Positions 3,328-29,229 of a stretch of DNA of 29,805 nucleotides are shown piece by piece (position 1 is the first letter of the stretch; each line of letters begins with the position of its first letter). This DNA comes from Entophlyctis helioformis (lineage: Eukaryota > Chytridiomycota > Chytridiomycetes > Chytridiales > Chytriomycetaceae), in the NCBI GenBank assembly GCA_025526915.1, contig JAHLKH010000258.1, forward strand, positions 1 to 29,805, given 5' to 3'. Below the pieces are notes generated by a model. That model saw only the letters and a list, made by a program, of their open reading frames with translations, searched no databases and was not told where the DNA came from. A program made the position numbers and the translations under genes.

Positions 3328-3335
3328 TGCCATGG

Positions 3336-3341: not shown

Positions 3342-3434
3342 CCTGTCTTTGCTTTGTTATTGTGGCCGTTGTTTCGAGACCCGGAACCGCCCAGCCAGCC
3401 CCAGAGACTGCCAGAGACTAGTGAAGACCGCCAG

Positions 3435-3729
3435 ATGGTACGTGCGCATCCACCACACGCCGCTGCGAGGCGGCATCGCCACAGGTTGCGCACCGAGCAG
3501 ACGCGGATCGTGCAGCCGCAGTGGCGCAGCACAGTGCTCATGTGCGAGCACAACACGACCCGTGGCGACTGGGCTGACACCCCCTCGTGCCCCTGCACTG
3601 CACTGCACTGCACTGCAGACAACAATCAACAAACTCGCAGACGATCTCGACAGAAACGTCTCGATTGTCGGCAAGCCCGCTGGTGCAGACATCAACAAGA
3701 CTGCCAGCACCAACGCCGCCGCTGGCAAT

Positions 3730-3763
<34 letters not shown>

Positions 3764-6123: not shown

Positions 6124-6349
6124 TGCAGCCATCTGGACGGGCGATTGGCGGTGATGACAAGTGCGGATGTGGCGGATGGACAGAAGGTACACTCGCGATG
6201 GTGGCTGTGCGGCACAGGAGGGCATGCGACCAAGACGACAATGAAGCGGATAGAGGGCACACAGCCAAAGAGGAATGATAGATATTTATGGTTTTCATGT
6301 ACATGGTGAGCAGCGGCCCGCCAACAAGGGAGGGCGGCTGCAGAGGCAA
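6124..6349. other. Convergent 3' region, no gene seen
   Basis: The 226 bp between the Iml2 and kinase stop codons have no supportable gene. A small AT-rich patch at 6277-6300 (GATAGATATTTATGG) is the likeliest place for 3'-end signals of either gene. Confidence 0.5.
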
Positions 6350-9118: not shown

Positions 9119-9428
9119 GGGGGCGGGTCGGTCAATGGTCAATGGTCGGTGGTCGGTGGTGCACACGGCACGGCTTTGAGTGTCGCCTTCAGTGCGGCTT
9201 TGAGGGCAAAATCGATCTGCTGAAGCACCAAGTGTCGCGGGCCACGGATCACGCATCGCGGACCACGGCAAGGACCCGCCGGTTGATCCGCGTGCCATCT
9301 GCGCCTTTATTCGCACACACACGCATGCAGACAGGCATGTAGACACGCATGTGGACAGGCATGTAGACACACGCACACGCACACGCACACGCACATGCAA
9401 GAATGCAGATACACACACGGCATGCCGC
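9119..9428. other. Intergenic region with short tandem repeats
   Basis: This 310-bp gap lies between the kinase start (9118, -) and the FAT1 stop (9429, -). It holds the kinase promoter and the FAT1 3' UTR. Visible repeats are GGTCAATGGTCAATGG plus a doubled GGTCGGT (9129-9160), two copies of ACAGGCATGTAGACAC at 9331-9346 and 9355-9370 (24-bp period), and a following CACACG run to about 9395. No gene is seen. Confidence 0.6.
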
Positions 9429-11970
9429 TCAGAAGCGCACGTCGCCGGCCGCCAGACGCGCAACAACCTGCTCGTCGACAGCTTCCCAGCTCCTGCTCGT
9501 GGGCCAGAACACATACACGGCATCGCCCTCGGTGCGCTGCGGATCGTAGCCCTGCTGCACGTACTGGAACTTTTGGAACTTGAGCGTGCTCGTCTTCTCG
9601 TGCTCCCGCTGCCGCAGGCGGATGAAGATGGGCCGCGCGTACGTGGGCAGCTGCTCCAGGTGCGCCGTGAACTTGGCCAGATCAAATGCCGACGGCGGCG
9701 TGGACGGATCCAGCACAATCGACGCCATGCCCGCGCGTCCGTCCGAGTGCGGGATGCGGATGCCATACACTGTCGGCAATGCAATGGCATGCAATGCAAT
9801 GCGGTCAGCTGCCGCTCCGGCCACCATATGCCACCATATGCCGCCGCGGCTTACCATTGACCTCCAGCACGCCTGGAAAGGCACCCACGACCACCTGGAT
9901 CTCTGTTGCGCATCGATCCAAGTGTCAGCGTCTGCACAGTCGACCCCCTCCACCGTGGCTCAGACGTACCGTGTGTGCTCACGTTCTCGCCCTTCCACCT
10001 GAACGAGTCGCCGGTGCGGTCCACAAAGTAGAAAAAGCCCTGCTCGTCCATCTTGAGCAGGTCGCCAGACGACCACCACATGTCGCCGTCCTCAAACACA
10101 TTCTCGTACAGCTTGCGTCTCGTTGCGTTTTCGCCCACGTACCCGTCGTACACGCCTCCAGGAAGCCGCATGATCATCTCGCCAATCTCGCCTGGTCCGC
10201 ATGCAATGCACCGGCCGTCGTCCGTCCGCATCACAGCGTCCTCCTCAACGTCGTACCGCACCAGCATGCCGCCCTCGCCTGTCATGGACTTTTGCTTGGC
10301 AAGCTCGAGCGGGAGAAACCCACACGAGCCTGGCTTGTTGAAGTAATTGAGCACAGCGTCGCCGGGCATCTCCGTAGACCCATAGTGCTCAACCACTTGC
10401 GTGATGCAGAATCGGCGGCACACGTCGGTCCAGATGTCGCTGCGCAGACCATTGCCGATCGCGACGCGCAGAGGCGAAAAGGACGGCGTGCCTTCGTTGG
10501 GCTGTGTTGGCAGCGTGAACAGGTACCGCCACAGCTCGCCAATGTAGATCGTGGCCACGCACTGGACAGTCGTGCAAGCGCAGTGTGAGTACGCGAGATG
10601 GCCCGCAGTTCAGCGTGCACTCATGCCCCACACGGACCTGGTGTTCACGAATGTCCTTGAAAAAGTTGCTGACCGAGAACTTTTCGCGCAGAACAATCGT
10701 GTTGCCGAGCAGGTAGCACGGCGCAACAGCAACCACGCCGGCATTGCTGAGGTCGAGTCATCCATCATGGTCAGCGGACGTCGTTTGTGGCGTGCCTGTT
10801 GAGCTGGCCGGCCGCACTCACCCGTGGTAGAGGGGAAGAGTGATGTAGTAGCGATCGCCTGTCTTGAGGCCGCTAGGGCCAGCCCAGGTGACGGCAGCAC
10901 CAATAAAGCGTCTGTGCGAGAACTTGGCCGCTTTGGACGGGCCGGTTGTGCCTGATGTGAAGATGTAGTACAGCGGCGTGCGAGACGTGACTTGGTTGCG
11001 GACAGATGAGGGCGGACGGTCTGCTCGCTGAGATGCAAGGACGTCGGGGCCTAATGCGTGATGGAAGATGCCATTGACGTATGTGTTTCTGCTGATGCTG
11101 CTGTCTGGCGGACTTGCCGTGTTGGAAGGCACGGCAGCCAGGACCGTGTCCAGTGGAACAGGCGTGTCCTGGCCAGCGTACCAGTACACGTCCTTTGGCG
11201 TGTCAAAGGGCGATGCAACGTCAATGCTTGCCCAGTTGGCGAGCTTGTTGACGGATGCAACAACAACACGTGCACCCGACACATTGATGGCGTGGTGCAG
11301 CAGGCTGCCCTTGAGGTTGGTGTTGATGAGCGCAATGGTGACGCCGATCTTGGCAAAGCCCATGGTCATGGCGAGATACTCTGGGCGGTTCTCCATGAGA
11401 AGCGCAACCTGAGCGATCGTGGTGGGTGTCGAGCGGTGCGATCGTGGAGTGGTTCGATGGCCGAGTGCGAACACGATCGACCGCCGACGGATGGCCGATG
11501 CCACGGCACACGCAGGCGGATGATTTGGTGTCAGCACGCAGGGAATATCCGCAGCCGCCGGATGCCGCAGATGGCCGAGAGCGGCGCTCACCGTCTGCAG
11601 CTGCGCCAGGCCGATGCTCGAGCCCCAGTGCGCAATGCGGTTTGCAGCCGCATCCAGCTCGCCGAACGTGTAGCGGGCGGCGTGGTCGACGGCAAACACG
11701 CACGGCAAGTCGCGGTGCCTTGGACGCCGTGTTGGGCCACGCAGACCGCGCGGCAGACGGAGTCGGCGGTCAGCGCATTGCATCGCATGGCATGGAAGCG
11801 CAGCGCATTGCAGACGCAGCTCACTTGTCGACAGACGCCTCAAAGAACGACGCTGCGTTTTCCACCGCGCCGGCCTCGGCCAGCTGGCGCAGAGCCGCCA
11901 TCTTGCGCTCCTGCATCTCTGCGAACCGCGCTTCGAGCGCAGCCGTCGTCGTTGATTCTGGTGTTGCCAT
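9429..11970 (-). CDS. FAT1: Very-long-chain acyl-CoA synthetase / fatty acid transport protein
   Basis: Fat1/FATP enzymes activate long and very long fatty acids to acyl-CoA with ATP, coupling import to activation at membranes. Seven exons stay in phase: 11970-11825, 11718-11592, 11408-10822, 10746-10638, 10561-9970, 9902-9855 and 9769-9429, giving 649 aa, the normal family length. Motifs in order: the VALLMENRPEYL block; the AMP-binding loop YIFTSGTTGPSKAA; LPLYHG split by an intron; YIGELWRYL; HYGSTEMPG; WWSSGDLL; the family signature DRTGDSFRWKGENVSTHE; and VYGIRIPHSDGRAGM near the C-terminus. Every splice restores these motifs, which supports the model. A first exon of about 48 residues precedes the adenylation domain. 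It is divergent from YSH1 with 91 bp between starts. Confidence 0.94.
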
Positions 11971-12013
11971 TGGTTTGCGTCGTTGTGCGGTTTGCGAGCA
12001 AGATCTTACAGGA

Positions 12014-12061
12014 CACTCGCAGCAGCACTTGCAACAGCACTCGCAGCAGCACTCGCAGCAG
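12014..12061 (+). repeat. Four 12-bp repeats abutting the YSH1 start codon
   Basis: Four head-to-tail copies of CACTCGCAGCAG (the second copy is CACTTGCAACAG) occupy 12014-12061 and end exactly at the base before the YSH1 ATG. The repeat is in frame with the coding sequence (would read HSQQ) and lies in the 91-bp divergent promoter/5' UTR. Confidence 0.9.
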
Positions 12062-15000
12062 ATGGAGTGGAGACGCAAGCGCAAGGCGGCGCCAACGGCC
12101 GTGCCAGTGGCAGACGAGGGCGACATCCTCAAGCTGACGCCGCTGGGTGCGGGCAACGAGGTCGGCCGCAGCTGCATCCTGCTGCAGTACAAGGGCAAGA
12201 CCGTCATGGTGCGTGCGTGCGTGTGTTCGTGCATCTGCGCATGTGTGTGTGCGTTGAACGGCACAGACACGCACAGACACGCACCGGCCTGTGCACGCTC
12301 ACGCTCGGCTGCCTTGGCTGCACCAGCTCGACTGCGGCCTGCATCCGGCCTACTCGGGTCTGGCGGCCCTGCCCTTCTTTGACGACATCGACCCGTCGTC
12401 CATCGATCTGATCCTCATCACGCAGTACGTGCCGTGCCTGTGCTCGTCCACCTGTGCTCGTCCACTCGTGCTGACCGAGACTGACTCGCCGCCCTGGCTC
12501 AGCTTCCATGTCGATCATGCGGCCGGACTGCCCTACTTTATGGAAAAGGTGTGTCCCTGCTGCAGGCTCTGGGCCGCGGATCCGGCTAACAGCGTGTCTG
12601 GCACAGACCACGTTCAAGGGACGAGTGTTCATGACACATCCCACCCGTGCCATCTACAAGTGGCTGCTGGCCGACTACGTCAAGATAAGGTTGGCCGCCA
12701 TCCCGTCTGGGCCGCCCTGGATCTGGGCCTGGATCTCTGCCGGTGGCTGACATGCGTGGTCGCTTGCCCAGCTCGCTCTCGCCAGACGACCAGCTCTACA
12801 ACGAAAACGATCTCGCAAAGTCGTTTGAGCGCATCGAAGTCGTCGACTACCACCAGGAGGTCGACGTGGGCGGCATCAAGTTCACTCCATACAATGCCGG
12901 ACACGTGCTCGGAGCAGCCATGTTCCTGCTGGAGATTGCCGGTGTGCGTATCCTTTACACTGGCGACTACTCGCGCGAAGAGGATCGCCACTTGATGGCG
13001 GCCGAACGCCCGCCGCACGTGACGCCCGAGGTGCTCATCTGCGAGTCGACGTACGGCGTGCAGTCTCACGAGCCCAGACTGGACCGCGAAACCCGCTTCA
13101 CGCGCATGGTCCACACCATTGTCAAGCGCGGCGGCCGCTGTCTGCTTCCCGTCTTTGCCCTTGGACGTGCGCAGGAGCTGCTGCTCATCCTGGACGAGTA
13201 CTGGCAGGCACATCCAGACCTGCACAGCGTGCCCATCTACTACGCGTCCTCGCTCGCCAAAAAGTGCATGACCGTGTACCAGACCTACACCAACATGATG
13301 AACACGCGTATCCGCGAGCAGATCAAGACTTCCAATCCGTTCCAGTTCAAGCACATCAGTAACTTGAGAAGCATTGCGCATTTCGACGACGTGGGTCCGT
13401 GTGTCATGATGGCCAGTCCCGGCATGCTTCAGAGCGGGCTGTCGCGCGAGCTGCTCGAGTTATGGTGCACGGACCGCCGCAACGGTGTGATCATTCCTGG
13501 ATACGTGGTTGAGGGCACTCTGGGCAAGGTGGGGTTTAAAGCAACCTTGCATACCGTGCGATGGCGGCTTTCGGTGAACTGACTCGTGCCTTGCTTCCGA
13601 CCGCTTACAGCAAATCCTGAGCCAGCCAGAGGAGATTCCGTCCATGAACGGATCCAAGCTGCCGCTGCGTCTCACTGTCGAGTACATTTCGTTTTCCGCT
13701 CACGTCGACTACAAGCAGAACTCTGAGTTTATCGAAGACGTTGGGTCGCCCAACCTGGTTCGTCTGCGTGCTTGGCAGCCATGCCCTGGGATCCCAATCA
13801 GTGGATATGCATGCGACTGACACGCATATACACAGGTACTTGTGCACGGCGACTCGAACGAAATGTCTCGTTTGCGCAGCGCACTCCAACGACGCTATTC
13901 CGAGCGAGAAGTGCCGCTGAGCATCTTCACGCCACGCAACTGTGAGACGGTCGAGCTCGTGTTCCGCGGAGAGAAGATGGCCAAGGTCATTGGCATCCTG
14001 GCCAAGGCGGAGCCAGAGGACGGCACGGTTGTCGAGGGTCTGCTCGTGTCCAAGGACTTTGCGTTCCAGATGATGGCGCCAGAGGATCTGGTCGAGTTTA
14101 CCGATCTGAGCACAGCCAACGTCGTGCAGCGGCAGTCGATTGCGACACGTGCACCGTTTGGCCTTGTCAAGTGGCATCTGGAGCAGATGTACGGGTCTGT
14201 CAAGGTGGTGGGGTCGCAGAGCCTGCGCGTCTTTGACACGGTCACGGTGACCATGAGTGGCAACACCAACGGCAGCAGCAGCAGCGGCGGCAGCGGGGCA
14301 GAGTCGGAAAGTGACGCAGCGAGCAAGACGCCGCATGCGCTGCTTGAATGGGAGAGCAACCCGGTCAACGACATGATTGCAGACACGGTTCTTGCTGTGC
14401 TTTTGCAGGCCGACACCAGTCCTGCCAGTGTCAAGGGTGAGGCTGGCATTGTCGGGCACTACCATGCGATGGCCGTGTATGCTGACTGCTGGCTGATGAT
14501 GCGCCAACAGCTACAAAGGGAAGCCATTCCCACTCACACTCTCACTCGCACAAGCACGCTGATGACGGCGACAAAGAACACGATCACGACCATGGCCACG
14601 ACCACGACCACGCCGCCACCGAATCTGTCAAGATCAAAACCGAGCCAGGCCTCGCTTCTGATGACAAGGTCAAGACCGAGCTTCCAGCATCCCCCTCAGC
14701 ACCGTCTGGGTCAGCAGCGACTGTGCGCATCAAGGTCGAAGAAGACATGGACGAATCAGGAGCACAGACAACAGCAACAGTGGCAGTAGCCACCGAATCG
14801 GCTGCTTCGGATATGCCGACGCTGGCCAGTCTGATCACCAAGTGCCTCGTGCTCCAGTTTGGCAGTGAGCGCGTGGCGACTGGCAGCAAAAGCACCGCTG
14901 CAGACCAAGTCCAGACTGCTGGCCATGTCTGGACGGTCTCACTGGACGACGACCACGCGACGGTCACGGTATCGCTTGACGGATCGACATTTGTAAGCAC

Positions 15001-15180
15001 CACCCGCGTGGGACGGCTGTGGTGGCTTTTGCGTGGCAATGGCTCGCTAACACCGGCTGCGTGGATGGACAGGACACCGCATCGGCGTCGGAGGATCTGC
15101 AGCGTCGCGTCCACATGATCGTTGGACGTGCGCTGCGCACATGGACGCCACTGGAGCTGGCATGGGCACCTGCAGTCTGA
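12062..15180 (+). CDS. YSH1: Pre-mRNA 3'-end endonuclease CPSF73/Ysh1
   Basis: CPSF73/Ysh1 is the zinc-dependent nuclease that cuts pre-mRNA before polyadenylation. Nine exons in phase: 12062-12208, 12327-12424, 12503-12548, 12607-12689, 12772-13528, 13611-13757, 13836-14436, 14511-14992 and 15073-15180, giving 822 aa, longer than the human (684) and yeast (779) proteins. The metallo-beta-lactamase motif HFHVDH (82-87) is assembled across an intron. The beta-CASP region is highly conserved ([45 protein letters not shown]). FSAHVDY and VHGDSNEM follow. The C-terminal domain (about 720-822) is recognisable by its pattern. A family-atypical insert at about 627-710 is rich in His/Asp and holds three PsiKxE motifs. 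Confidence 0.95.
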
Positions 15181-15382
15181 GCGTGGCGCGGCCACCAGTA
15201 TCCTGCCTGGTGCCGTGCAATGAACAAGCATGCGGCTGCAAATGCGAACTGGTATGTTTATGAGGTCTCGAGCGAGACAGCAAGATTAAACAGGAGAACA
15301 TGGGACGATCGAGTGGCAGTAGGAGAAAACAGACAGACAGACAAACAGACAGACTCGACTCTGACGAGCGCCGAGCGGGCGA
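15181..15382. repeat. Convergent 3' region with CAGA microsatellite
   Basis: The gap between the YSH1 stop and the SRPBCC gene stop contains an imperfect (CAGA)n run at about 15329-15354. No gene is seen. Confidence 0.65.
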
Positions 15383-15970
15383 TTACTTGCTTTGCGGCTC
15401 AGGCGGCGAGTCGACCTTGCCCGTCTCGCACAGCTGCTTGAGGTTCTTTGTGCAAATGTCAAACGCCTCCATGGTCTTGCCGCCGATCAGGCCGCGGTAA
15501 GCGAACGTGGCCCAACCGGTGAATCGGACGCCCATCTTGAGGTCGAATCCGGCGGCATCGGCGCCCGAGATGTCCCAGTACCAGTCGGCCGTGACGCCGG
15601 GCAGCTTGGTCTGGTACTCGACGTACTCGTTCTCGCGGATGTTCTGCAGGCGGAAGCGGAACGACTGGTTGAACTTCATGTCCAGCGTGCCTTGGGCACC
15701 GTTGAGCGTGGCGGGCGAGAGCACTGCCGGCACGGTGTCGAGCGTTGCCTTGGCCAGGTCGACGTCCCATGTCGGCCAGTTGGGCACGTCCATGAGGATG
15801 CGCCAGAGCGTCTCTACAGCCGCCGATGGAAGAATGGCGGGCGGACAAGGTCAGCGGTGGCTCGCCTCGCCTGGCGGCTGCGCAGCGCCGAGCACGCAGT
15901 GCAGACAGACGAGCCGCAGACACTTACGGACGGGCGTGTTGATGCGAACGGTCTTGTATGCGTCCCACAT
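15383..15970 (-). CDS. SRPBCC-fold (polyketide cyclase/START-like) protein
   Basis: SRPBCC proteins form a helix-grip fold with a deep hydrophobic cavity for lipids, polyketides or other small ligands. Two exons, 15970-15928 and 15813-15383, give 157 aa, a typical single-domain length. The N-terminus reads as the characteristic first strand and helix of the fold (YKTVRINTPVQTLWRILMDV, then PNWPTWD), which only appears after splicing C|GTAAGT to GTAG|AG. The C-terminus is the long helix (GGKTMEAFDICTKNLKQL), followed by a short polar tail. There is no signal peptide, so a cytosolic place is likely. A TATA-like CTATAAG (minus strand, 16030-16036) lies about 60 bp before the start. The ligand is unknown. 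Confidence 0.8.
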
Positions 15971-16441
15971 GGCGTGCGGATGTGCGATGAGATACTGCCG
16001 GGCAGGTTCGGTGGAGGAAACGCCGCCAACTTATAGTATGCGTCGCTATTTCCCCGCCATTTTCCGCGGTCGCCACCTCATTTCTCCACCGCTTACACAA
16101 GTGGCGTCATGGGCAAACCACGCCGCAGATCGAGTCGTGCTGCCAGACCTGCTGTCTGCTGCTGCCAGACCTGCTGTCGCTGTTCTGGTGACTGGCTGCA
16201 TTGGCTCGCGGGCCAGTCGGCTCGCAGATCGTGACCATATGTACAGTGCGCCACAGTCCGAATGAACAGGCCGGCGCGCATGGACGCTTGCTGGATCTGT
16301 CCTTGACGCCAGGCTCAAACGCAGAGCAGCACCAGCAGCAGCCCGCCAACAAACAGCGTGTCTCAGCCAGACGAGACATGCTGCGATTGCGCCAGCATTC
16401 CATTGTGCACATCACTTGTATTGGTTGTCGAAGCATGACAG
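15971..16441. other. Intergenic region: SRPBCC promoter and duplicated 3' flank
   Basis: From 15971 to about 16152 this is the upstream region of the SRPBCC gene, with a TATA-like element at 16030-16036. From 16153 onward it is the right arm of the inverted duplication, holding the 3' flank of the esterase-ABCG gene and a 13-codon remnant of the coiled-coil gene. An 18-bp direct repeat GCTGCCAGACCTGCTGTC (16139-16156 and 16161-16178) sits at the arm boundary. Confidence 0.7.
16153..16191 (+). pseudogene. Remnant of coiled-coil gene last exon at duplication edge
   Basis: These 39 bp are the duplicated end of the last exon of the coiled-coil gene (source 828-790), including the end of its hydrophobic helix and TGA at 16189-16191. 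Upstream of 16153 the sequence no longer matches that gene, so only this fragment was carried over. Confidence 0.7.
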
Positions 16442-16980
16442 TCACGCCTTGGTGTCTGGCGTCGAGGCTGCCCCGAAAACGCCACTCAGCCAGCCTGTGA
16501 TCGCAGACGCATGCGCATCCACAACCAACAGAGCAAGCTGGATGGCGCGGAAGGCGGCCCACAGACCCACCACGCACGCCAAACACACGTCGGGCGACAG
16601 CCGGTCGGCGCGGATTTGCTCCACCACCAGATCGCCCACACTGGCTCTGCACTCGGTGCCGGTCGGGCCGAGCAGCACACACTCGCCAGCGCCAGCCATG
16701 TTGGCACGGATGAGCGGCGACAGCGTCCAGTAGGTCGGACTGATATACTGCAGCCACCACAGCAGATCAAACACGGCCGTGTCGCCTCGCTTGATCCACA
16801 GCCCGCTCGCAATCGCAATCACTGCCTGTGTGAAGAACGCGATGCTGCGCGCTTCGGGTCGGCCAAGCCGCGTGCCGTACACGAGCGTGAACATGGCCAC
16901 AATGCAGTTGTAGTACGCCACAATGAACGTGACAATCGTCTGCGGGCGGCCCGGTGCTGTGCTGCATCCCATGATAAAGT
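16153..16980 (-). repeat. Right arm of inverted duplication
   Basis: Reverse complement of 1-828, 24 mismatches without gaps. It covers the last about 178 codons of the esterase-ABCG gene and its 3' flank. The inner ends of the arms are 15.3 kb apart. Because the left arm is cut by the window edge, the true length is unknown. Confidence 0.97.
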
Positions 16981-19900
16981 ACGCGCACAGAGCGACGGCA
17001 ACAGACTCGAGTGTCGATGTGGCTGTCTCGTACACGGTGCGATGCACCCAGAATGCAACCAAGTGCACCGATCCGTTGAGCGTGTCGTAGTTGTACACAT
17101 CGCGGTCGTCGTAGTAGTCCATGGCAATGCTGATGTTCTTGAGTGCGACCAGACCCATGCTCACTGCGGGACACCAGCAGCAGCGCCACGTTGGAGCACA
17201 AGAGCGTGTCAGCGCACAAAGCACAGTCATCACACGCAACACGCGCATCGCATGCGACACTCACCAAGAATGAGTCCCTTGATCTGCAGAGTCAGTGAAA
17301 TCAGATCGTCCGTCACCCGCCGCTGGATCACGCCTACAATCAGCGTGCTGGCAATGGCCAGAAAGAGCATCCAGAACTTGCGGAACAGCGGTCGCCTGCG
17401 CCACCAGCGCGCGTTGACCACCGACACTTGCTCGACAACACCGATGCGGCCCGTCTGCGCTTCAGTCGTGTCAGACTGCGTGCTCTCCAGAGTGGCGTCG
17501 TCTGATCCGAGAGTCAACGAGCCGAGGCGTTGCATGAACCCACGGCGCTGCTTTCCCTCCTGCCCTGTCTGTCTTGGCAGCCCGAGTCCAGCGTTCTTGG
17601 CAGAATCGCTGCCACGGTCGCTTGAGCTGCTGCTGCTGCTGTTGTTGTGCAGATCACCCACGCCACCGCCTTGCTCGCTGCCTTGCATGTCAAAGTTGCT
17701 GCCAGTCGCGAGTGCGGGCCGTGCTACCGGCACGATACTCACTGGTCTCGGTGCCTTGGCCCATCGCCCTCCCATGCCAGCCACATGGGCAATCTCGCTC
17801 TCGGGGATCGCCGCAACAATGTCCAGGATCGCATCCGCAGGATTGAGGAACGCGTCGCGATCGTTGTCCGGCGCGCTGAACACGAACCGGCTCACGGTGT
17901 ACTCCCACGGTGTCTTGGTGACGCTGTACAGATGCGCCTTGTGGTGCGACTCGGACTCGCGACCGCCCATGCTTGGTGCAAGCTGTCCAGTGGACTTGCG
18001 CACGCTCTGCGCAAACTTGATGCACGACTGCGGCTCGCCCTTGAACAGCAGGTGGCCCTTGGCGAGGAGCAGGACGTCGGTAAACATCTCAAAGATCTCG
18101 CGGCGAGGCTGGTGGATCGACGCGATGACCGTGTATCCCTGGCGAGACAGGTGCGACAGGATACTCATGACTTCAAGAGACGAGCGTGCATCCAGACCCG
18201 ATGTTGGCTCGTCTGTGTATATGGTTGGATTTTGGGTTGTCAGATGTGAGCCAGGCAGGACAACCAAGCCATGCAAGTGTCAACGGCACGCACCAAGAAT
18301 CAGAACACTGGGCTGCTTGAGGAGAGCGACAGCGACAGCAAGGCGGCGCAGCTGGCCGCCGGAGATGCCGCCCTTGTTGTCGGCCGCATCCTGGATCACG
18401 ACATCTGCGCACGACTCGAGACCCAGCATCTCCAGGATCTGCGCCACGCGGCGTGTCAGGCGGTTGGGCGGTGTGCCCGCAGGCAGCTCCAGCTTGGCGT
18501 ACGACAGCAGCACCTCGGTGGGCGTCATGCCGACAAACGGCGGATGGTGTTGAGGCACAAAGCCAACCAGACGCTGGAACTCGCTGTGCGTCATCTTGGA
18601 CAGACGCTTACCGCCATAGTAGACAAACTGCTCCGCGTCTCGATGCTCAATGCGACGTGCAAGCTGGACATGAACAGGCGGCAAGCGTGATACACAGATC
18701 ATCAGGTGTGTGTGTGAGAGAGAGCCAGTGCGGCTGGTCGGCAAGACAGCCACGGCAATCAACGCCACTCACCAGAGCCATCAGAGACGTCTTGCCTGCA
18801 CCGCTGGGTCCGATCAGCGCAGTCAGCGTCTTGGGAGCACACTCAAACGACACATTGTCCAGGATCGTCTTGACAGCAGCCTTGGACCCGACCGTGTATG
18901 CCAGATGGCGGCACTCGACCGACACCGGGATAGGCTTAAAGTCGGCATCAAGCACGCTGGACGCATCTTCCACGTCGACAGAGCCCTTGCCTGCATTCGA
19001 GCTGATGCTACCGGTGCTGCCAAAGTCAAAGTCGTCCGACTTGAACTGGCGCTGCTGTGCAAACTGCGAGTCGAGACGCGTTGCTTGCCACCGAGCAAGC
19101 ACGAGCATGGCCGCCTGTGCAAGGCAGACGAGACCCAAGAGCATCCAGAAGAGAATGGTGCTGAGCGTGGAGATGGACGCCGTCTCTGGCATCTCGGTCT
19201 TGGTCTTTTGCTCGTGCACGTAGGTGAGCGTGTCCATGAACTGGCACTGTGCCGACAGAGGGTGCTGCTGCTCGATCACGACAACAGCGGCATCAGAGGT
19301 GGACGAAGACGAGCCGCTGGACAGTCCGGCAGCATCAGCAGGGGGAGCAGCAAAGCGTGCGCTTGGATATGCACCGACAGTGACTGCGGCGGGTCCAGAC
19401 GCAGCAAAGGCGGGCCACACGGGCAGAGACGGCAGCTGTGCGGCCGATCCGTTCGTGTTGGGGGCGACAGGAGCAGAGGCGGATGCAGTGAACGGCGCGG
19501 CGATGTTGGGATCGTTGTTGTAGACCATGTTGGCGACATACTGGCGAAACGCAGCCGAGATGCGAGACCCGTGTGGGTCGCTTGGCGATCGCAGGAGGAA
19601 GAACAGGTCGGTGGTGTGGCAGGCGTCCTTGCAGACACGGCCAGCCGGATCGTCGAGCGTACTTCCAAACGGAGTCTCCCAAAAGTACGAATAGATGCGC
19701 GGCGCAGGCGTGTTGGAGGCAGCAGTCGGCGCAGACGACACACGGCGCATGCTGCGCTGCGGGGCACAGACAAACAGGTAGTCTGACATGATGCGAGCGA
19801 GTCGCGGGTTCAAGTCGCGGCCAAAGCTGGCGGACTCGACGGCGGTTGTGTCTGCATAGGCGAGACGGACATCCGCGCCACGACCAGGGAAGATGGCATC

Positions 19901-21400
19901 GGTTGCGACGGTGTAGAAAGACTCGGGTGCACCGACTCCCGACAGCTTGTCAAAGAAGTACGTTGTCTCGTTGGACGTGGCGCCGATCATGACGTTCAAG
20001 CCAGCCATAATGGCGCTGTTCTCGAGCATGTCAATGGGGTGTTGAGGGATGAGACTGCCGTCGTCTGAGATGCCACAAGCAGATGGTGGATCGTTGAGAG
20101 CGAGTGCGAGTGTGAGTGCGAGATTGTGGGGCATGAGCATGGGTACAAACGGCAATGCCGCTCAGGCACTCACAGACAGGCGCAAGGGATCTGTCGAGCG
20201 TCTGCGTCTTGGATCTGTCCGTGTCAATGGCATCGACAGCATCGAGCAGCTCGCGCGACGACTTGGACGCCATGCACGCTGCAACAGCCGCGCCATCGGC
20301 AGCGCCACCAGACACACATCCAGCACGCGCGGCGATCTTGAGCACTCTGGCCAAGGCAAGCTGCGGGGGACGCAGCGCAACATCGGGCGGCGACATGAGA
20401 ATGAGGTTGCGGAAGCGTGCCTTTGTGGCGGGATCGGCCATGTGGATGATGGCCGACATGGCGCCGGCCGACTGGCCAGCAAGCGTCATCCGCGCAGGGT
20501 CGCCGCCGAACGCGCGGATGTTGGCGCTGATCCACTCGATGGCCATGCGCTGGTCGAGGATGCCGAGGTTGGGCGATGTGCGCGATGTGGGCGACGCAGG
20601 GGCTGGCAAAAAGGCGGTGGTGCCTGGGAAGCCAAAGATGCCAAGACGGTAGTTGAACGTCACGACGACCGCCTGGATGGCCGCAGACAGCTCGTTGGCG
20701 CGCATGTCGGCGACATCTGCGCCTCCCTGTTGGTTGCCGTTGGCGCCGTTGCAAGTACCGGATGGCGCACAGGTCAGCAATCCAGTCGATGTTGGACGGT
20801 ATTTGTGGCAGTGACATGACGTTGCGCAGACTGACCTGCTCAAACGAGCCGCCGTGGATGAACACAAACACAGGCAGCGGCTGAGAGGCAGCAGCCAGCT
20901 GCGAGGCGTTGCGGAAGGGCGTCCACACACTGAGCGACAGGCAGTCCTCGTCAATGTCCCGAGGGCACGACACTCGGCGGCAGATCTGGGGACAGCTGGG
21001 GCGTGGAGCAAGCGCAAGATACGGCGCAGAGAATGCGGCGACAGGCGACGGTGGCGACCAGCGAGGCGCTTGCGCAAAGGGGATGCCGACAAACGAGAAG
21101 CCGTTGGAAAGAGTGCGGCCGCCGGTGATTCTGCAGGCGCAGTGGGGCAGGGGCGAGCATGGCGAGTGGGTGAGCAAGGCGGCGGCTGGAGGCGTCAACG
21201 ATCGAGGGGCGATGGTGCACATACTGGCCGGCCGTGCTGGCGATGGTGACCGTCTCGACGGGAGGGGCTGCACTGGCAACGCCAAACAGGCACAGCAACA
21301 GACACACAGCAACAGCGACGCTGGGCTGCAGACGCAGCGCACCGCGGCGGCACAGGCGGCGGTTGACGTCTGGTGGCGTACTGCCTTGAACGGAGGGCAT
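16442..21400 (-). CDS. Carboxylesterase-ABCG half-transporter fusion protein
   Basis: Seven exons in phase: 21400-21225, 21130-20836, 20726-20174, 20064-18773, 18663-18294, 18212-17265 and 17163-16442, giving 1451 aa. Residues 1-44 are a signal peptide with a VAVAVCLLLCLFGVASA core. Residues about 50-570 are a type-B carboxylesterase: FVGIPFAQAP, EDCLSLSVW, FIHGGSF, the nucleophile elbow GQSAG with Ser243, the acid Glu374 in ATSNET, and His491 in ACHTTDLFFL, so the triad is present. A Ser-rich linker and a membrane helix (about 642-664) follow. The ABCG nucleotide-binding domain comes next: Walker A GPSGAGKT 760-767, Q-loop Gln810, signature ISGGQ 872-876, Walker B VLILDEP 892-898, switch His929. 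The ABC2 membrane domain fills about 1170-1451. The expected topology puts the esterase outside or in the lumen and the ATPase in the cytosol. Substrates are unknown. Confidence 0.9.
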
Positions 21401-21702
21401 GGTTGTCGCTTGGGAGAAGAAAATCCAGCAGGCAGTGCAAAGAAGGGCAGTGCACGGCATGTGCACGGCCACAGTTGCGTGATTTCCGAGATCCGCTTTG
21501 TCTGGGGCGATGCAGTGGCGACAATGCCCACTGCTGCTGCTGCTGCTGCTCCTGCTGCTGCTGCTGCTGCTGGTCTGGCTCAGTGGACACACACAAACAG
21601 ACACGGCAAACGGATGGTCAAAGAATGATGTACTTTGCTATAATCAGGAACGAATGGTATGCACAGGGATAGGTGGATCGACAGGGCAATGCAGAGAGCG
21701 TG
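21401..21702. other. Intergenic region with CTG tract
   Basis: This 302-bp gap lies upstream of the esterase-ABCG start (21400) and downstream of the MFS stop (21703), both on the minus strand. It contains an interrupted CTG repeat at 21531-21572, about 130 bp before the start codon. The frame with the esterase ATG is open further upstream (in-frame ATGs at 21457 and 21604), so a longer N-terminus cannot be excluded. No other gene is seen. Confidence 0.55.
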
Positions 21703-24004
21703 CTACTGGCGCCGCTCGTCGTCGCCACTCGACACGCTGTGGTACTCTGAGCCGTGGCTGTTGCGCACAGACGCCGCTTCGGATACACTTGCAGACGATG
21801 CGCCGCCAGACTCGTCGTCAGGCAGCGGCACGTATCCGCCAACCTCGTCGACGCGGGTGAACAAGAGACCCGAGGCGGCGCAGCAGTAGATCACGGCCGA
21901 GACAATCAGGAACAGGTTGGACATGGACGTGCCGACGGTCGCCGCCCAGATGTTGGGGAACACAATGCCAAAAATGAGCGACACAATCTGCTCGAGGAAC
22001 TGCACCGACGAGAACAGCTGGCCCTGCGACTGCTCCGGCACAGAGCGCGACAGCAGGCTGCGGATGTTGGGCGACGCAAGCGAGGCAAACCCGTCCACGC
22101 CTGCAATCGCAAAGATCATCCACGACTCCCATGCCAGAGCGAGCGCGAGCGTGGCAACAGCGCCAACACACAGACACGCCTGCACAAGACGCAGCTCGAA
22201 CCGGATCTTGCCGTCGGGACTCGCCTGCATCAGTTTGAACGCACGGCCGAGCAGCGGGAACGTCACCAGCATGTGCAGGATGCGCGACATGGACCCCGTG
22301 AGCATATACTTGCCCTCGATGTATGCGTCCCAGCCAAAGCGGTATGCGGCGTAGTTGAAAAAGTTCATGCGGCCAGAGAGCGACGCCACCGTGCAGCAGA
22401 CCACGACGACGAGGATCACAAAGGTGCGGTTGCTTGCAACGTGGAACACGCGCGCCATCCCCGAGAACACTGTGTGGATCTCGTTGGATGCAATCTGCCA
22501 CGGCGACTTGCTGGATGCCGGTGCAGAGGCAGAGGCAGACGGCTCGCCCGTTGACGGGTTGCGCAGGCCGACGTTGCTCCTGTTGAGTGCGGCTCTGGAC
22601 CGCGACCGGTCGGCGCGTGCCTTGGTCTTTGCCGGCAGCGACTCTGGCAGGATGAAGACCGAGTAAAGCAGAGTGACGATCTCGAGGGCGATGGAGATGG
22701 CAAAGACGTAGTCGACCGACGGCGAGATCTGTCAGGCGTGGTTGGTGGACCGGTGGTGTGTGAGTGGGATGTGGCGGCAGGCCAGGCAGGGCAGGCAGGC
22801 CAGGCAGGCAGGCACGCACCCCGTGTGAACACGCCGCCGAGGAACGGGCCGAGAGCAAAGGCGAGGAAGATGAACGCCTCTGCAAACACAAACGTGCGGC
22901 TGCGGCTCTCAGCATCGGTCGTGTCGGCAAAGTATGACAGCGCGGCCGTCATGATGACCGACCACGAGCCCATGAGGCCCTGGATGAGGTGCACGACAAT
23001 GAGGGCCCACAGACCCAGGCCCAGGTTGGACACGGACAGGATCGACACAAAGTTGAGGGCCGAGCCGATGATGGGCATGATGATGATGAACTTGCGGCCC
23101 CACGAGTCCGAGAGAGCGCCAAAGCACGGGCCGGCAATGAGCGCCGGCGTGCTTGTGCACAGCGACAGCACCATGGACCAGCGCGCGGCGAGTGCCTGTC
23201 AACGTGTCAACGTGTCAGCGATGCGGCGGTGTCAGCGAGTGCGGCTGTTCAGGGCTGTCCTGGCAGGGGCTGTCCAGTGGCAGCGTGCGATGCCAGCCAG
23301 CCAGCAGACGGGCACCAGATCCACGTCCGCATCTCCGACTCGCACTCCGCCCGCTGCCATGGGCAGTGCTTGGGCGGGAGCGGGGAATCAAACGCTCGCA
23401 CAGGCAGCTGGCAGCCAACAAGGGCAAGCGACAAGGGCAAGGGCATGGACATGGGCCGCACCTGGACGGCCGCATTGGCCGAGCACGTGGGCCAGTCGGC
23501 GTCCGAGAACACGGCGGGCGTGTGGAAGAGGCCCGGCAGGAACGCCGACGTGGGCGGCGCTGTTTCGACGGGCAGGTCGAGCCATTGGCCGGCAGCGGGC
23601 AGCAGCTGCTGGTGCTGCTGCGGGAAGCGCCGGCACAGGTACAGGATCATCCACTGCTGCAGCGGCACGATGGCCAGGCTGACGGCAAACACGTGCAGGA
23701 ACAGCGGCACGCAGGCGTGGTACGGCGACGGGCGGCGGGCCTTGGCCGCGTGTGCGTCGTCGTCGTTGTTGTTGTCGTCGTTGCCGTCGCCGTTCAAGGC
23801 AGGCGGCGGCCCAATGTCGCTGGCCGAGCGGGGAAAGCGATTGGACGGCGACGGCGGCACGGGCCTGTGCACCAGCGGCGTGTGCTCGGTGGGAGCAGGC
23901 GCAGGCGCAGGCGCAGACACAGGCATGGCAGCTGCTGTTGGTGTCGCAGTCGTCGCAGTCGCAGTCGCAGTTGCAGCCAAGAGTCCGGGCGTCGGCATCG
24001 GCAT
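21703..24004 (-). CDS. Major facilitator superfamily transporter (SLC46/HIAT1-like)
   Basis: A 12-helix MFS carrier of about 648 aa. Exon 1 is 24004-23462, exon 2 is 23195 to 22818 (or 22833), exon 3 is 22728-21703. The N-terminus is a long cytosolic Ala/Pro/Asp-rich stretch. The first helix is VPLFLHVFAVSLAIVPL, followed by a long loop, then the family A-motif GALSDSWGRKF and an ESRSRTFVFAEAF block typical of SLC46-like carriers. The GPFLGG motif closes helix 5. A charged central loop (PAKTKARADRSRSR) separates the halves. The C-terminus is acidic and Ser-rich. The exon 2/3 junction has no in-frame GT-AG option that keeps the VFTRG residues; a GC-AG donor after 22818 does. The substrate is unknown. 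The start lies only 50 bp from the divergent ankyrin gene. Confidence 0.85.
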
Positions 24005-24054
24005 CGGCGGATTCGTGCTTTGCGGGCAAGCAGAAAGCCAAAACCAGCGCCGCC

Positions 24055-25455
24055 ATGGGCCGCGCGACGCCTCGCAGCCGCTGGGATGCGCTGCCGCTCG
24101 AGCTGCGGCGCCAGACGCTCGCGCACGCCGGCCTGCTGACCCGCTTCCTGTGCGGCCTGTGGGCGCCGGCATCGCCCGCGGCCGTCGGCGCGCTGTGGGC
24201 CGAGGCGCTGCTGCTCGACTGGGCCGGCGACCTGCACGCGCTGCCCGACGTCGACCTGTGCCGATCCGTGGCCGCCTGCGACGTCTTCGATGGCAGCGGC
24301 GCCTTTGACGGCAGCGACGGCAGCAACACAAGCAACACAAGCAACGCAGCGCACGGCCGCTGCTCGCCCCTCATGCTCGGCGTGCGCTCGCGCTCCATGT
24401 TCCATCGGCTGTGCGCTCGCTTCCCGCTGCAGTCCGACACTCACCCTGCGCAGCTGTTTGCGCTGACCGACTGGATCGCCTCGCAGTGCGTCGCCGGCAA
24501 CACCGCTGCTGTCGCCCATCTGGCTGTGCACCACCACACGCCGCCGCTGCCCGACATGCGCCGCCGGCTGCTCAACATTGCGATGCGCCACTGCTGGATC
24601 GACCTGCTGGATCTGCGGACGGCGCCGGCGCTGGTCGCATATGCCATTGCGTGCGGCCACGCCGAGCTGCTGCGGCAGCTGACGAGCGAGCGCAGGCTGG
24701 TGGATCTGCGCAGCGTGCAGTGGGTGCCGTTCATCGCCAGCACAGACGCACAGCCTGGTGCCGTGAGCAGCAGCAGCAGCAGCAGCAGCATCAGCAGCAA
24801 CAGCAGCAACACCAACACCACGATCAGCCTGCATCGGCCAATGGACCTTGCAGCGTCACTCGGTCATGTCGGCGTGCTCGCTGTTCTTCACGAGGCAGGC
24901 AGCACAGCCTGCTCGTCGCATGCCATGGACTACGCATCGCTGCACGGCCGTCTGGATGTGGTGCAGTGGCTACATGCGCACCGCAGCGAGGGATGCACCA
25001 CCAATGCCATGGACCATGCAGCGTCGCGTGGACACTTGGACGTGGTGCAGTGGCTGCACGCCAACCGGACCGAGGGATGCACGCAGCGAGCCATGAACGT
25101 GGCAGCAAGCAGCGGACACCTTGCTGTTGTGCAGTGGCTGCACACTCATCGCACCGAAGGCTGCACCACGGCAGCAGTCAACTGGGCAGCCAAGAACGGA
25201 CACGTGGATGTTGTGCAGTTCCTGCTGGCGCATCGCAGCGAGGGGTTCACGCTGGCTGCGATCGAAGGAGCAGGCTCAGCAGCAACAAGAACAGCAACAG
25301 CAGCAGCAACCAAGAGCAAGCAGCACGATCGCCTCGTTGCGCAGTTGGTGCAGAGCCTTGTGGGCACTCTGAGCGACGAGCAGCGAGCAGAGATGCTGCA
25401 GGATGCAATGGACAGCGGCAGTGTGGTTGCACAGCAGCGACTGGAGAGTGCCTGA
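24055..25455 (+). CDS. F-box-like / ankyrin-repeat protein
   Basis: A single-exon gene of 466 aa. The N-terminus (WDALPLELRRQTLAHAG) resembles a degenerate F-box, which would link the protein to SCF ubiquitin ligases; this is inference. After a serine/asparagine low-complexity run (about 238-255), residues 263-395 hold five ankyrin-type repeats of about 33 residues, with near-identical units carrying GHLDVVQWLHANRTEGCT. This repeat style occurs in very large gene families in oomycetes, zoosporic fungi, amoebae and giant viruses. The C-terminus is a helical segment with no recognised domain. The target is unknown. Confidence 0.85.
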   Translation: MGRATPRSRWDALPLELRRQTLAHAGLLTRFLCGLWAPASPAAVGALWAEALLLDWAGDLHALPDVDLCRSVAACDVFDGSGAFDGSDGSNTSNTSNAAHGRCSPLMLGVRSRSMFHRLCARFPLQSDTHPAQLFALTDWIASQCVAGNTAAVAHLAVHHHTPPLPDMRRRLLNIAMRHCWIDLLDLRTAPALVAYAIACGHAELLRQLTSERRLVDLRSVQWVPFIASTDAQPGAVSSSSSSSSISSNSSNTNTTISLHRPMDLAASLGHVGVLAVLHEAGSTACSSHAMDYASLHGRLDVVQWLHAHRSEGCTTNAMDHAASRGHLDVVQWLHANRTEGCTQRAMNVAASSGHLAVVQWLHTHRTEGCTTAAVNWAAKNGHVDVVQFLLAHRSEGFTLAAIEGAGSAATRTATAAATKSKQHDRLVAQLVQSLVGTLSDEQRAEMLQDAMDSGSVVAQQRLESA

Positions 25456-25571
25456 GTGCGTGGAATGAATGGCCAGATGCGGCCGAAACCTTTCTTGTTG
25501 TTTGTCATCGTGTGCACTGCCACGCAGCCACAGCGGCACGTGGCTGGCTTGAACTTTCTCTCACAAACGCA

Positions 25572-26035
25572 ATGACTGAAGCGGCACCAGCACAGCAGCA
25601 AGACCAGCAGCCAGCGGCACAGGTCCCCGCAGCCAGCGGTGCGGCAACCACTGGACAGCCACAAGCGCAGATGCCGATGCAATCCGCTGCGCAGCCGCAG
25701 ATGGCCTACACTGTGCAGCCGCCGATGGTGTTCACAAAGCCGGCAGTCGGCGGCACCAGCGGCGTGGTGGTGGTGTGTCCCAACTGCCACAACACCGTGT
25801 CGACGACGGTGGACATCAGCCCGAGCCTGCTCACATACATTGTCGCAGGCGTCACCTTTGTCGTGTGCTGCCCGCTGTCGTGGGTGCCGTTCTTCATCGA
25901 CGACCTCAAGGTGTGTTGCCGCTGTGCTCGGCCGCTGGCTTGGCTGGCTTGGCTGGCTTGGACTGACAGGTGCTGCTTGGACAGGATGCGACGCACTCGT
26001 GCCCGGTGTGCAGGATCACTCTGGGCAGCAGCTAG
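25572..26035 (+). CDS. LITAF-domain membrane-associated protein
   Basis: LITAF-like proteins sit on the cytosolic face of late endosomes and lysosomes. Two exons, 25572-25910 and 25985-26035, give 129 aa, with a Gln/Pro/Ala-rich N-terminus. The zinc-ribbon halves are CPNC (exon 1) and CPVC in DATHSCPVCRITLG (exon 2). Between them lies the amphipathic hydrophobic segment LLTYIVAGVTFVVCCPLSWV that inserts into the membrane. Splicing AAG|GTGTGT to GGACAG|GAT is needed to bring the second CxxC into frame, which strongly supports the model. The 74-nt intron contains tandem TGGCT units. Confidence 0.9.
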
Positions 26036-26137
26036 GCTGCCAGGCAGGCTGCCAGACAGACAGACAACCAGACAGACATCCCAATAGCATCCATCTGTAC
26101 CACCAACGTCCGCTTCATTCCCTTGTCAGCCAGGCAG
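26036..26137. repeat. Short intergenic gap with CAGA/CAGT repeats
   Basis: A convergent gap between the LITAF gene and the Brp/Blh-like gene, containing a CAGACAGA run at 26055-26078 and a CAGTCAGG run that extends into the stop codon of the latter. Confidence 0.55.
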
Positions 26138-27587
26138 TCAGGCAGTCAGCCAGTCAGCCTGCGAGTCTGCAACGTCAATGCCCGAGTCGCTGTGGTGCAC
26201 AGGCGGCGGCGGCATCGGCAGCGAGTGCTTGGCAGCCACGACCCACACATGCGGCCCTGTGAGCACCGAGACGGCCATGACAAACACGGCCCACAGCCGC
26301 ACACTTGTATCCACCTGCTGCGATCCGGTCGCTGCTGTCTCTACTGTCTCTACGGTCGATCTGGTGGCACTTGCGGCGTCGTTGTGCAGCAATGGAAACA
26401 CGGCATAGAAGCCTGCCATGGACAGAATGGCCACGGCCGTGTAGGGCACAGCAGCCCTGTAGCACCGCGCAAAGTCGCCGAGTGTCACTCTGTCTTGGTG
26501 TGCTGCAATGGCATCGATGGCATCCTTCTCGTTGTTGCCGCTGTTGCTGCCAGTGCCGTCCAAGGATGCCACAGATGTGCCAAACATCGGATGGCTGCCA
26601 GCCTTGAGAAACGCAATGTCGGCCGCCATGGATCCCAGCGAGTGCCACAGCCCAAAGTACACGGCAAACCCCATCAGCGGATCTGTCAGCCGGAACACGG
26701 CCACATAGAGGAGAGCGCGGCACATCTCGCACATCCACAGCCGTGCTGACGGCGCACTGACCGTGGACGCTGCTGGAAACCGCGCGTGAGAGTCGTGTCT
26801 GCCAGCAACCGACCGCGTCTTGTGTGGCTGCAGCCAGATGCAGATGCCAGCGACGGATGGAGCACCGCAAGCGCAGACAGAACCGCCACGTGCTGCGTGA
26901 CAATGGCTGGATACAGCCACGGGTGCGAGGCGTGGCAGTCATGGCCGACCAACTCTGTGAGGATGGGCACGGAAATGGACGGATCGGATGCCATGGTGAG
27001 ACCGACAAGCAAGATGCCGCGCGACGCAAACACGGCTGGAGCCACAGCCGGCGGATATGCAGCGGCAAAGTCGATGGTATCCAGATCCGACTGCAGCACG
27101 AGGGATGTGAGTGGCGAGTGGCGAGTGGTGAGTGGCGAGTGCTTGCAGCCACAGGGCACGGCAGGCGGCAAGCACCCACCTCGCCGAAATGGAATGCCGA
27201 CACGGCCAGAAAGGCAGCGAGCGTGAGAGACGGCGCAATGGTCCAGCTGAGTGACCATGCAGCCATGATGAGCAGATACGTGGCGTACAGCGCTGCCATG
27301 CTTGGCATGCATGCCAGCCACGATCCCGTTGGCGTGTGGTGTCTGGCGGCTGTTGTGCTGCGATGCTGCAGCAGTGCGTCATGGCTGCGATCAGAGCGGC
27401 TCGTGCGATGGCGGATGTGCTGCAGATGCTCGTGCATGACATGGTCGAATGCGCCGTGTGGGATGCCGAGTGCCAGCACGAGCAGCAGCATGATGGGCGT
27501 CCTGAGCATGGCGTACACTGCTGGCGGTGCTGCACAGGCGACCGCTGTGATGGCGATGGTTGCAGCGATCTGCAACCGCCGCACCAT
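26138..27587 (-). CDS. Brp/Blh-family beta-carotene 15,15'-dioxygenase homologue
   Basis: Brp/Blh proteins are polytopic membrane enzymes that cleave beta-carotene to retinal. Exon 1 is 27587-27180 (136 codons), exon 2 starts at 27090, and the last exon ends at 26138; total about 380 aa. The hallmark metal-site segments are seen in order: LGIPHGAFDHVM (His44, Asp48, His49), SAFHFGE joined by splicing to SDLD (His133), YFGLWHSLG, and LTGPHVW near the C-terminus, each within or beside hydrophobic helices. Frame changes between about 26860 and 26750, so a small intron is needed; candidates are about 41 nt (GTCGGT..TTCCAG) or about 38-62 nt ending CTGCAG, and I cannot choose. Identification rests on motif order; no opsin or carotenoid gene lies in the window. 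Confidence 0.75.
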
Positions 27588-27644
27588 GTCTGGCTGGCCG
27601 AGTCTGGCTGAGTTTGGCTGAGTTTGCGCACAGATCGGCAGGCG
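27588..27644. promoter_or_regulatory. Very short divergent promoter
   Basis: Only 57 bp separate the start of the Brp/Blh-like gene (-) from the ATG chosen for the membrane protein gene (+). It contains three GAGT(T/C)TGGCT-like units (27599-27625). The + strand start may lie further downstream, which would widen the promoter. Confidence 0.35.
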
Positions 27645-28916: not shown

Positions 28917-29229
28917 GGCACTACTGGCTGGCGTCTGTTGCCCACCCTCTGTTGTCCACCCCCTTTGTCCCAATACAGTACAGTACACGTTGAGCATCTG
29001 CTGTGCATGGATGCATGCATGGTGGCGATGAGAGTGTCGCACACTGCGAGAAGGAGAGGGAGAAGCAGGCAAGTCTAAAAGGCATGTTTATGAAGCAGAT
29101 ACGGAGCAGATACGCAGCAGATACGGGAGCAGACTAGATGCAGATGGGCACGACTCGAGAAGGGAGTGGCGCCGGAAAGAAGAGACACGGGAAACAGAAC
29201 CAGAAGCAGAGCCAGGTGGAGTCACAGGA
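28917..29229. other. Intergenic region, no gene seen
   Basis: A 313-bp convergent gap between the PPxY membrane protein gene (+) and the DUF3455 gene (-). It contains short direct repeats (ATACAGTACAGTACA near 28972, GCAGATACG copies at 29095-29125) but no open frame of note. Confidence 0.55.

Follow-up and report, generated by a model that had tools for sequence, protein, structure and literature searches.

Gene Structure and Domain Organization

The stretch analyzed here (the window) is the entire 29,805-base contig C258 (JAHLKH010000258.1) of the chytrid Entophlyctis helioformis, which carries on its minus strand, from position 21400 to 16442, a gene for a carboxylesterase fused in one reading frame to an ABCG transporter. 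The seven-exon model that a preliminary description of this DNA had proposed for the gene was rebuilt exactly: 4356 nt encode 1451 amino acids (aa) followed by one stop codon, all exons join in phase, and the introns, 81-109 nt long, have GT-AG borders. The esterase-ABCG fusion is confirmed, with no substantive correction to that description.

The esterase begins in exon 1 (21225-21400; all coordinates of the gene refer to the minus strand), which contains the start codon and, according to hydropathy, a signal-peptide-like segment (hydrophobic aa 27-45, then AAPP). Exon 2 (20836-21130) encodes the N-terminal part of the esterase, with a cysteine loop of the pattern SCPQIC...CP...EDC and the oxyanion-hole HGG (20848-20856), and exon 3 (20174-20726) encodes the esterase core with the nucleophile Ser243 (20469-20471). 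The second half of the esterase, assigned like the preceding parts from the gene model and alignment, lies in exon 4 (18773-20064) and includes Glu374 (19967-19969), His491 (19616-19618) and the last esterase cysteine, C615 (19244-19246). According to hydropathy and the frame count, the same exon continues without a stop through a hydrophobic helix, here denoted TM0 (19100-19156), and a linker to the Walker A motif (18788-18811). In the gene model, exon 5 (18294-18663) covers the nucleotide-binding domain (NBD) with the Q-loop and the ABC signature (SGGQ, 18352-18363). Exon 6 (17265-18212), preceded by an intron that divides the codon of Asp896, encodes the Walker B/D-loop, the H-loop His929 (18112-18114), an NPAD motif, a variable loop and the start of the membrane domain, whereas most of the ABC2 membrane domain, along with C1373 and C1383, is encoded in exon 7 (16442-17163); both assignments come from the model, Pfam and the alignment.

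Three Pfam profiles match the protein above their cut-offs, namely COesterase (PF00135) at 53-529 (E 1.5e-77, 262 bits against a cut-off of 27), ABC_tran at 743-900 (E 1.1e-25) and ABC2_membrane (PF01061) at 1164-1362 (E 1.8e-9). Besides the profile, the esterase half has the other attributes of a type-B carboxylesterase, i.e., the HGG oxyanion hole and a Ser/acid/His triad, with Ser243, Glu374 and His491 found at the positions previously reported (contexts GQSAG, SNET and ACHTT). In the ABC half, all five ABC motifs (Walker A, Q-loop, signature, Walker B, H-loop) are likewise where they had been placed (Walker A GPSGAGKT from 760, SGGQ at 873, Walker B DEPTSGLD at 896, H-loop His929), and one ABC_tran domain is followed by one ABC2_membrane stretch, the layout of an ABCG half-transporter. 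A second NBD-transmembrane domain (TMD) unit, as in the PDR-type full-size ABCG transporters, was not found by Pfam, which detects a single ABC_tran and a single ABC2_membrane domain, and there is no Pfam match to a C39 peptidase domain in this protein at E 0.001. The order of these parts in one chain, from the signal-like segment through the esterase, TM0 and NBD to the ABC2 membrane domain, is strongly supported; the predicted anatomy is that of a type I membrane esterase continued by an ABCG half-transporter.

As originally noted, exon 4 spans the junction of the two halves with no need for a splice: its own frame is free of stop codons, whereas the other two forward frames contain 7 and 9, and none of 5000 first-order Markov sequences of exon 4 composition was stop-free over 430 codons. 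GC content at the third codon position (GC3) exceeds that at the first and second positions (GC1 and GC2) in 18 of the 19 blocks of 75 codons of this gene, the exception being block 526-600. The polyadenylation signals AATAAA and ATTAAA, the presence of which between the halves would have argued for separate transcripts, are missing from the coding strand at 19500-18850, although this is a weak test; an Rfam scan of the window gave no match. A pseudogene status of this copy is not favored, given that the frame is open throughout and GC3 is the highest of the three in nearly all blocks.

Conservation of the Catalytic Residues and the Esterase Fold

The sites were compared in an alignment of 23 rows comprising the window protein, P0074 (a database model from a paralogous locus of the same genome; see below) and 21 further models; all counts refer to the rows that cover the given site. 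The nucleophile Ser243 is conserved in 19/19 rows and His491 in 22/22, whereas Glu374 is present in 19 of 20 rows, with Asp in Polyrhizophydium A. The oxyanion-hole glycines are invariant (18/18), and the oxyanion-hole His is present in 17 of 18 rows. The three ATPase residues counted are likewise conserved, the exception at the Walker A Lys being P0073, in which the model stops short of the NBD. The cysteines C1373 and C1383 of the membrane domain are present in all 21 covered rows, and Gln242 precedes the nucleophile in all 19. Conservation is what supports the prediction that the esterase is catalytically active. An N-glycosylation sequon, N-E-T, lies on the catalytic acid itself (residues 373-375; 19966-19972, minus strand) in 18 of 20 rows; it is replaced by N-D-S in one row and lost in another.

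This pattern bears on the possibility that the esterase fold is a non-enzymatic receptor, adhesion or dimerization module, as it is in neuroligin or in the cholinesterase-like part of thyroglobulin. The topology would be that of neuroligin, the hydrophobic segment of the neuroligin-named rows coincides by eye with TM0, and one member of the family, Gaertneriomyces P0189, has Pro in place of the oxyanion-hole His. However, non-catalytic relatives lose these catalytic residues (the neuroligin-named P0139 has T in the His column), whereas Ser (19/19), acid (20/20) and His (22/22) are all retained in the fusion proteins; the cytosolic part, too, differs, being predicted to be an ABC transporter. 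We consider a non-enzymatic role improbable.

In keeping with the assignment of the esterase half in the preliminary description, the predicted structure of P0074 (predicted local distance difference test, pLDDT, of 78) adopts an alpha/beta-hydrolase fold like that of acetylcholinesterase (AChE), the best PDB match being human AChE (Foldseek E 2.2e-33, TMt 0.78). The fold, the triad, the oxyanion hole and the cysteine pattern are common to the fusion esterase and AChE, bile-salt lipase and pNB esterase. The differences include the residue before the nucleophile, which in type-B carboxylesterases is usually Glu, as in the human AChE variant 5hq3, but is Gln in the fusion; further differences are two additional cysteines of the fusion esterase, C109 and C114, and a CxxxCH motif beside its catalytic His. 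In the alignment to 5hq3, the segment of the first cysteine loop of AChE that contains the choline-binding Trp86 is absent. Because this segment is missing, the window esterase is unlikely to be a cholinesterase.

The Junction and the Membrane Topology

Cys615, located 30 residues ahead of TM0, is a cysteine in 23/23 rows. In a wider alignment of esterases with 16 rows, cysteines occupy positions 441 and 615 together in 11 rows and neither position in the other 5. Given this co-occurrence, C615 most likely forms the closing disulfide of the esterase, so that the domain would end right at the membrane. TM0 was detected by hydropathy in all 20 Walker A-bearing proteins tested. Lys and Arg are more numerous on its NBD-side flank in 16 of these proteins, equal in 4 and fewer in none, and the net charge of this flank is higher in 17, equal in 1 and lower in 2. 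Since positive charge is biased to the NBD side, an N-out/C-in orientation of TM0 fits the data.

The structure of the junction is also relevant to the possibility that a single product is cleaved after synthesis into a shed or anchored esterase and a separate ABCG half-transporter. There are candidate sites, namely a low-complexity stretch at about aa 530-600 and a variable linker after TM0 (661-735), but the conserved segment around C615 runs directly into TM0, and we regard such processing as rather unlikely.

Copies of the Fusion Gene in the Entophlyctis Genome

When the contigs of this genome (29.57 Mb searched) were compared with the PF00135 and PF01061 profiles, a second fusion locus was identified, represented on contigs C27 and C133, where ABC2_membrane follows the esterase as it does in the window. 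On C133, a frame that is open for 761 codons from stop to stop, of which 583 belong to the protein, contains the catalytic Ser, Glu and His, TM0 and Walker A; because a single frame covers everything from the catalytic residues to Walker A, this junction needs no splice either. Over 574 aligned residues, this long exon and the window protein share 58% identity. The C27 and C133 copies (L017 and L018, respectively) are 96% identical over 4.6 kb, whereas in the flanks tested their similarity is limited to a match of 23 bases; the gene seems to have been copied to another site without its surroundings. In addition, contig C116 carries a copy of window positions 16982-29805 at 96-98.5% identity, which includes most of the gene. 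Thus, junction DNA is present on four assembled contigs, C258, C116, C27 and C133. An assembly error in exon 4, which would have undermined the initial proposal, was rejected for the junction: over codons 530-735, C116 is free of substitutions at all 618 aligned positions, and the same junction recurs at the C27/C133 locus. For both pairs (C116 and C258, C27 and C133), the substitutions by codon position are too few to be informative.

Near the gene, an inverted 834-bp repeat connects window positions 1-834 and 16147-16980 (97% identity). Its breakpoint is about 295 bp beyond the stop codon of the gene, and the start of the contig corresponds approximately to the point where C116 ends. It resembles an inverted duplication, a hairpin produced during assembly or a heterozygous inversion.

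Distribution Among Chytrids and Joint Descent of the Two Halves

Protein databases were searched with the window protein (71 matches) and a profile (103 matches), all of which were listed, and with the ABC half, for which the best 120 of 177 matches were considered; each search scored only the approximately 8000 candidates that shared most words with the query. The combination of COesterase, ABC_tran and ABC2_membrane is present in 14 of the top 15 matches of the window protein (P0001-P0006 and P0008-P0015), the remaining one, P0007, being an N-terminally truncated member of the same family. P0072 from Homolaphlyctis came from the profile search, and P0167 from Rhizophlyctis and P0189 from Gaertneriomyces were among the best matches of the ABC half; each of these contains the three domains. 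That last search also yielded truncated, ABC-heavy models of Blyttiomyces and Fimicolochytrium. In P0004 and P0167, the N-terminus of the esterase is incomplete. Altogether, at least 17 proteins, from at least 13 named species or strains of at least 11 genera plus one ENA sequence, contain all three domains, so that the architecture singled out in the preliminary description is well represented in databases. The taxa looked up in the NCBI taxonomy for all 11 genera, together with Entophlyctis, belong to Chytridiomycota. Judging from these sequences, the fusion is not peculiar to the E. helioformis genome; no database record names any of these proteins as a fusion.

Among the matches listed, we found no combination of PF00135 with an ABC domain outside the chytrids besides P0024. 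In this protein (814 aa, from a 5-kb contig; COesterase, a piece of ABC_tran and ABC2_membrane), Pfam shows the initial 220 positions of the esterase profile (515 in all) joined to the final 40 of ABC_tran (137 in all). With neither domain whole, it was set aside as a likely, if not proven, chimera. Batrachochytrium salamandrivorans is present among the matches listed but B. dendrobatidis is not, which could be due to loss, model length or the limits of the search. P0006 of Polyrhizophydium stewartii (1981 aa) has ankyrin and kinase domains ahead of the fusion, probably from a merged neighboring gene, and P0102 of Kappamyces sp. JEL0680, a partial model of 769 aa, joins PF01569 (PAP2) to COesterase.

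The breadth of this distribution is pertinent to the most mundane explanation, that two neighboring genes have been wrongly merged by the gene models. Database annotation does divide the C133 copy into P0074 and P0164. However, the C-terminal 25 residues of P0074 and the N-terminal 25 of P0164 match C133 exactly, and both models lie in a single frame, separated by 29 codons without a stop; at both loci, the junction frame is uninterrupted. The same merge would have to have occurred in at least 13 named species or strains, and C615 is conserved in esterase-only and ABC-heavy truncated models alike. A merge of two genes is therefore the least likely of the alternatives considered here, hardly to be entertained.

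The two halves appear to have evolved together. Trees were built from 31 rows for the esterase half and from 32 rows for the ABC half, with outgroups taken from the search matches; in each, the chytrid proteins form one clade apart from the outgroups used (support 97/95 and 100/99, respectively). For the 17 shared rows, the distances in the two halves correlate with r 0.93, or 0.88 without the long Gaertneriomyces branch, and none of 2000 permutations reached the observed r. The half trees agree in 12 of 14 splits, the disagreements involving Thoreauomyces versus Powellomyces and the place of Quaeritorhiza and Gaertneriomyces; the positions of long branches (Gaertneriomyces and several outgroups) are unsure. 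Given that trees and distances match, a single old fusion inherited as a unit seems to explain the data best. Accordingly, the part of the preliminary interpretation that concerned a one-chain architecture has held up, through the paralog, the 13 named chytrids and the matching half trees; the part that assumed an active enzyme relies on conservation.

Long joint constraint is also suggested by the juxtamembrane cysteine present in 23/23 rows. Together with the matching half trees, it argues, without proving a coupling, against mere co-localization, in which a surface esterase and a pump for unrelated compounds would form a two-layer detoxification system. Both superfamilies are classic components of xenobiotic handling, and this arrangement, although unlikely, is less so than any other alternative to cargo processing discussed here.

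Relation to Known Transporters and a Bacterial Parallel

Among solved structures, those closest to the ABC half in both sequence and fold are the ABCG half-transporters (ABCG1, ABCG2, ABCG5/8 and plant ABCG16 and ABCG25), which share with it the motifs and the order of NBD before TMD. The fusion differs from them by approximately 740 extra N-terminal residues that comprise the enzyme and a helix. The ABCG proteins yeast Adp1 and plant ABCG24/28 have a long N-terminal extension in the lumen and one additional helix; no esterase is known in that extension. For the 1155-aa fusion P0012 of Boothiomyces, the AlphaFold model (pLDDT 71) has halves that separately match carboxylesterases and ABCG transporters, with the solved ABCG chains covering only the ABC part (about 571-1138).

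Transporters that process their own cargo are known in bacteria: peptidase-containing ABC transporters (PCATs) combine a hydrolase and an exporter in one chain and process the cargo during export (PMC7018657; PMC10986499). The chytrid fusion differs in that its hydrolase is a serine esterase predicted to be on the far side of the membrane, whereas PCATs contain a C39 cysteine peptidase and belong to another ABC class. The PCAT peptidase is on the cytosolic side.

A parallel in layout emerged from P0065, a low-ranking match of the window protein, in which an N-terminal hydrophobic segment, a hydrolase of the Peptidase_S15/PepX_C type, a helix (by eye) and ABC_tran follow each other in one chain. 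A scan of bacterial and archaeal genomes for such chains identified 24 loci, of which 15 match over both halves (L025-L039); judging by the record titles, these 15 are from Actinomycetota. All but one are open in one frame, L038 having 5 stops in its best frame; the frames of Microlunatus kandeliicorticis and M. parietis, for example, encode 960 and 871 residues. Like the chytrid fusion, these chains of Microlunatus and relatives join in frame a domain of the GxSxG serine-hydrolase type, one helix and an ABC ATPase. Unlike it, they lack a membrane domain in the chain; in M. kandeliicorticis, a permease-like frame follows the hydrolase-ABC frame (by eye, after L028). Because the hydrolase family differs from the chytrid one, the actinobacterial layout arose separately. 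By analogy, this recurrence suggests an intrinsic benefit in linking an ABC engine with a hydrolase on the far side of the membrane, and it slightly raises our estimate for far-side cargo processing in the chytrid proteins.

In the literature that we searched, including the accessible parts of PMC5364385, PMC8778642, PMC13257379 and PMC2695561, there is no description of an esterase-ABCG fusion, although the search missed most subscription papers and preprints. The constituent families are known; what appears to be new is an ABCG transporter with a putatively catalytic esterase as its predicted outer domain, retained across much of the phylum.

Neighboring Genes

The Pfam matches of the neighboring genes (window positions 1814-15850 and 21706-25452) include 3-HAO, Nop16, Iml2/TTC39, protein kinase, CPSF73, MFS and ankyrin repeats, as well as AMP-binding in two pieces (one above and one below the cut-off) and Polyketide_cyc2 just below the cut-off. 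None of the neighbors with Pfam matches hints at the substrate of the transporter. Farther along (26141-28067, minus strand), there are two pieces of a beta-carotene 15,15'-dioxygenase (PF15461), a retinal-forming family of possible interest for light sensing in zoospores.

Proposed Mechanism and Implications

We propose that the signal peptide directs the esterase to the lumen of the endoplasmic reticulum and, finally, to the outside of the cell or the inside of an organelle, where TM0 would anchor it in the N-out/C-in orientation, with the NBD in the cytosol. By analogy with other ABCG half-transporters, the ABC half would dimerize, placing two esterases over the exit of one pump. The pump would then move an ester, or an ester-bearing lipophilic compound, outward, and the esterase would cut it on release, whereby the product would be trapped or activated beyond the membrane. 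Both cut-on-export and cut-before-uptake, the mechanisms originally envisaged, are plausible. The complete proposal, in which one gene encodes one protein consisting of a membrane esterase, TM0 and an ABCG half-transporter, with the topology and the export-and-cut mechanism outlined above, appears to us somewhat probable on the sequence evidence. For export with cleavage on release taken by itself, our guess is more reserved and falls clearly below an even chance.

Several observations weigh against this interpretation. The full-length P0012 model has a predicted template modeling score (pTM) of 0.47 and, because its root-mean-square deviation to ABCG chains is 17-19, does not place NBD and TMD as in ABCG. 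By hydropathy, only four TMD helices are seen in the window protein; the P0012 model contains six long ones. A signal-like hydrophobic segment within the first 70 residues passes the hydropathy threshold in only 8 of 21 proteins, the window protein included, and sequons are no denser in the window esterase (3 per 644 residues) than in the NBD (1 per 241). Three of the four copies in the genome are frame-broken by small indels, only C258 being open throughout: C116 has one-base deletions at codons 736, 782, 873 and 927 and stops before the end of the gene, C133 is one base short within the NBD, near the signature motif, and C27 has several small gaps in the linker. These indels may be assembly or sequencing errors or real lesions. 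Furthermore, the database proteins are themselves predictions, several of them truncated or split (P0004, P0007, P0073, P0165, P0166, P0167 and P0074/P0164), and a single species accounts for three of the models (P0001, P0002 and P0073). The Pro of P0189 at the oxyanion hole belongs here as well.

The direction of transport is the point at which scavenging has to be considered, i.e., cleavage of an external ester by the esterase, followed by import or inward flipping of the product by the ABCG half. The anatomy would be identical, chytrids are osmotrophs, and some plant ABCG proteins are importers. Nevertheless, fungal and animal ABCG half-transporters are mostly exporters, and no sequence feature points to import; hence, we consider scavenging unlikely, slightly more so than co-localization without coupling.

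Taken in its broadest form, our hypothesis is that the fusion represents an ancient, distinct class of chytrid ABC proteins in which an active outer serine esterase processes the cargo at the exit, a far-side counterpart of PCATs to which the actinobacterial chains would be convergent. We put this forward tentatively, as falling a little short of an even chance. The family is found in a salamander pathogen and in saprotrophs, and so is likely to be part of basic chytrid biology. Enzyme-transporter fusions reveal reactions that are coupled to transport, and ABCG substrates are hard to find; an esterase can report on the cargo, so that the ectodomain could point to what the pump moves. The fusion also lets one test whether far-side hydrolysis drives or rectifies ABC transport. 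If the hypothesis is correct, exit-side hydrolysis may serve more generally to trap or activate the cargo of ABC transporters.

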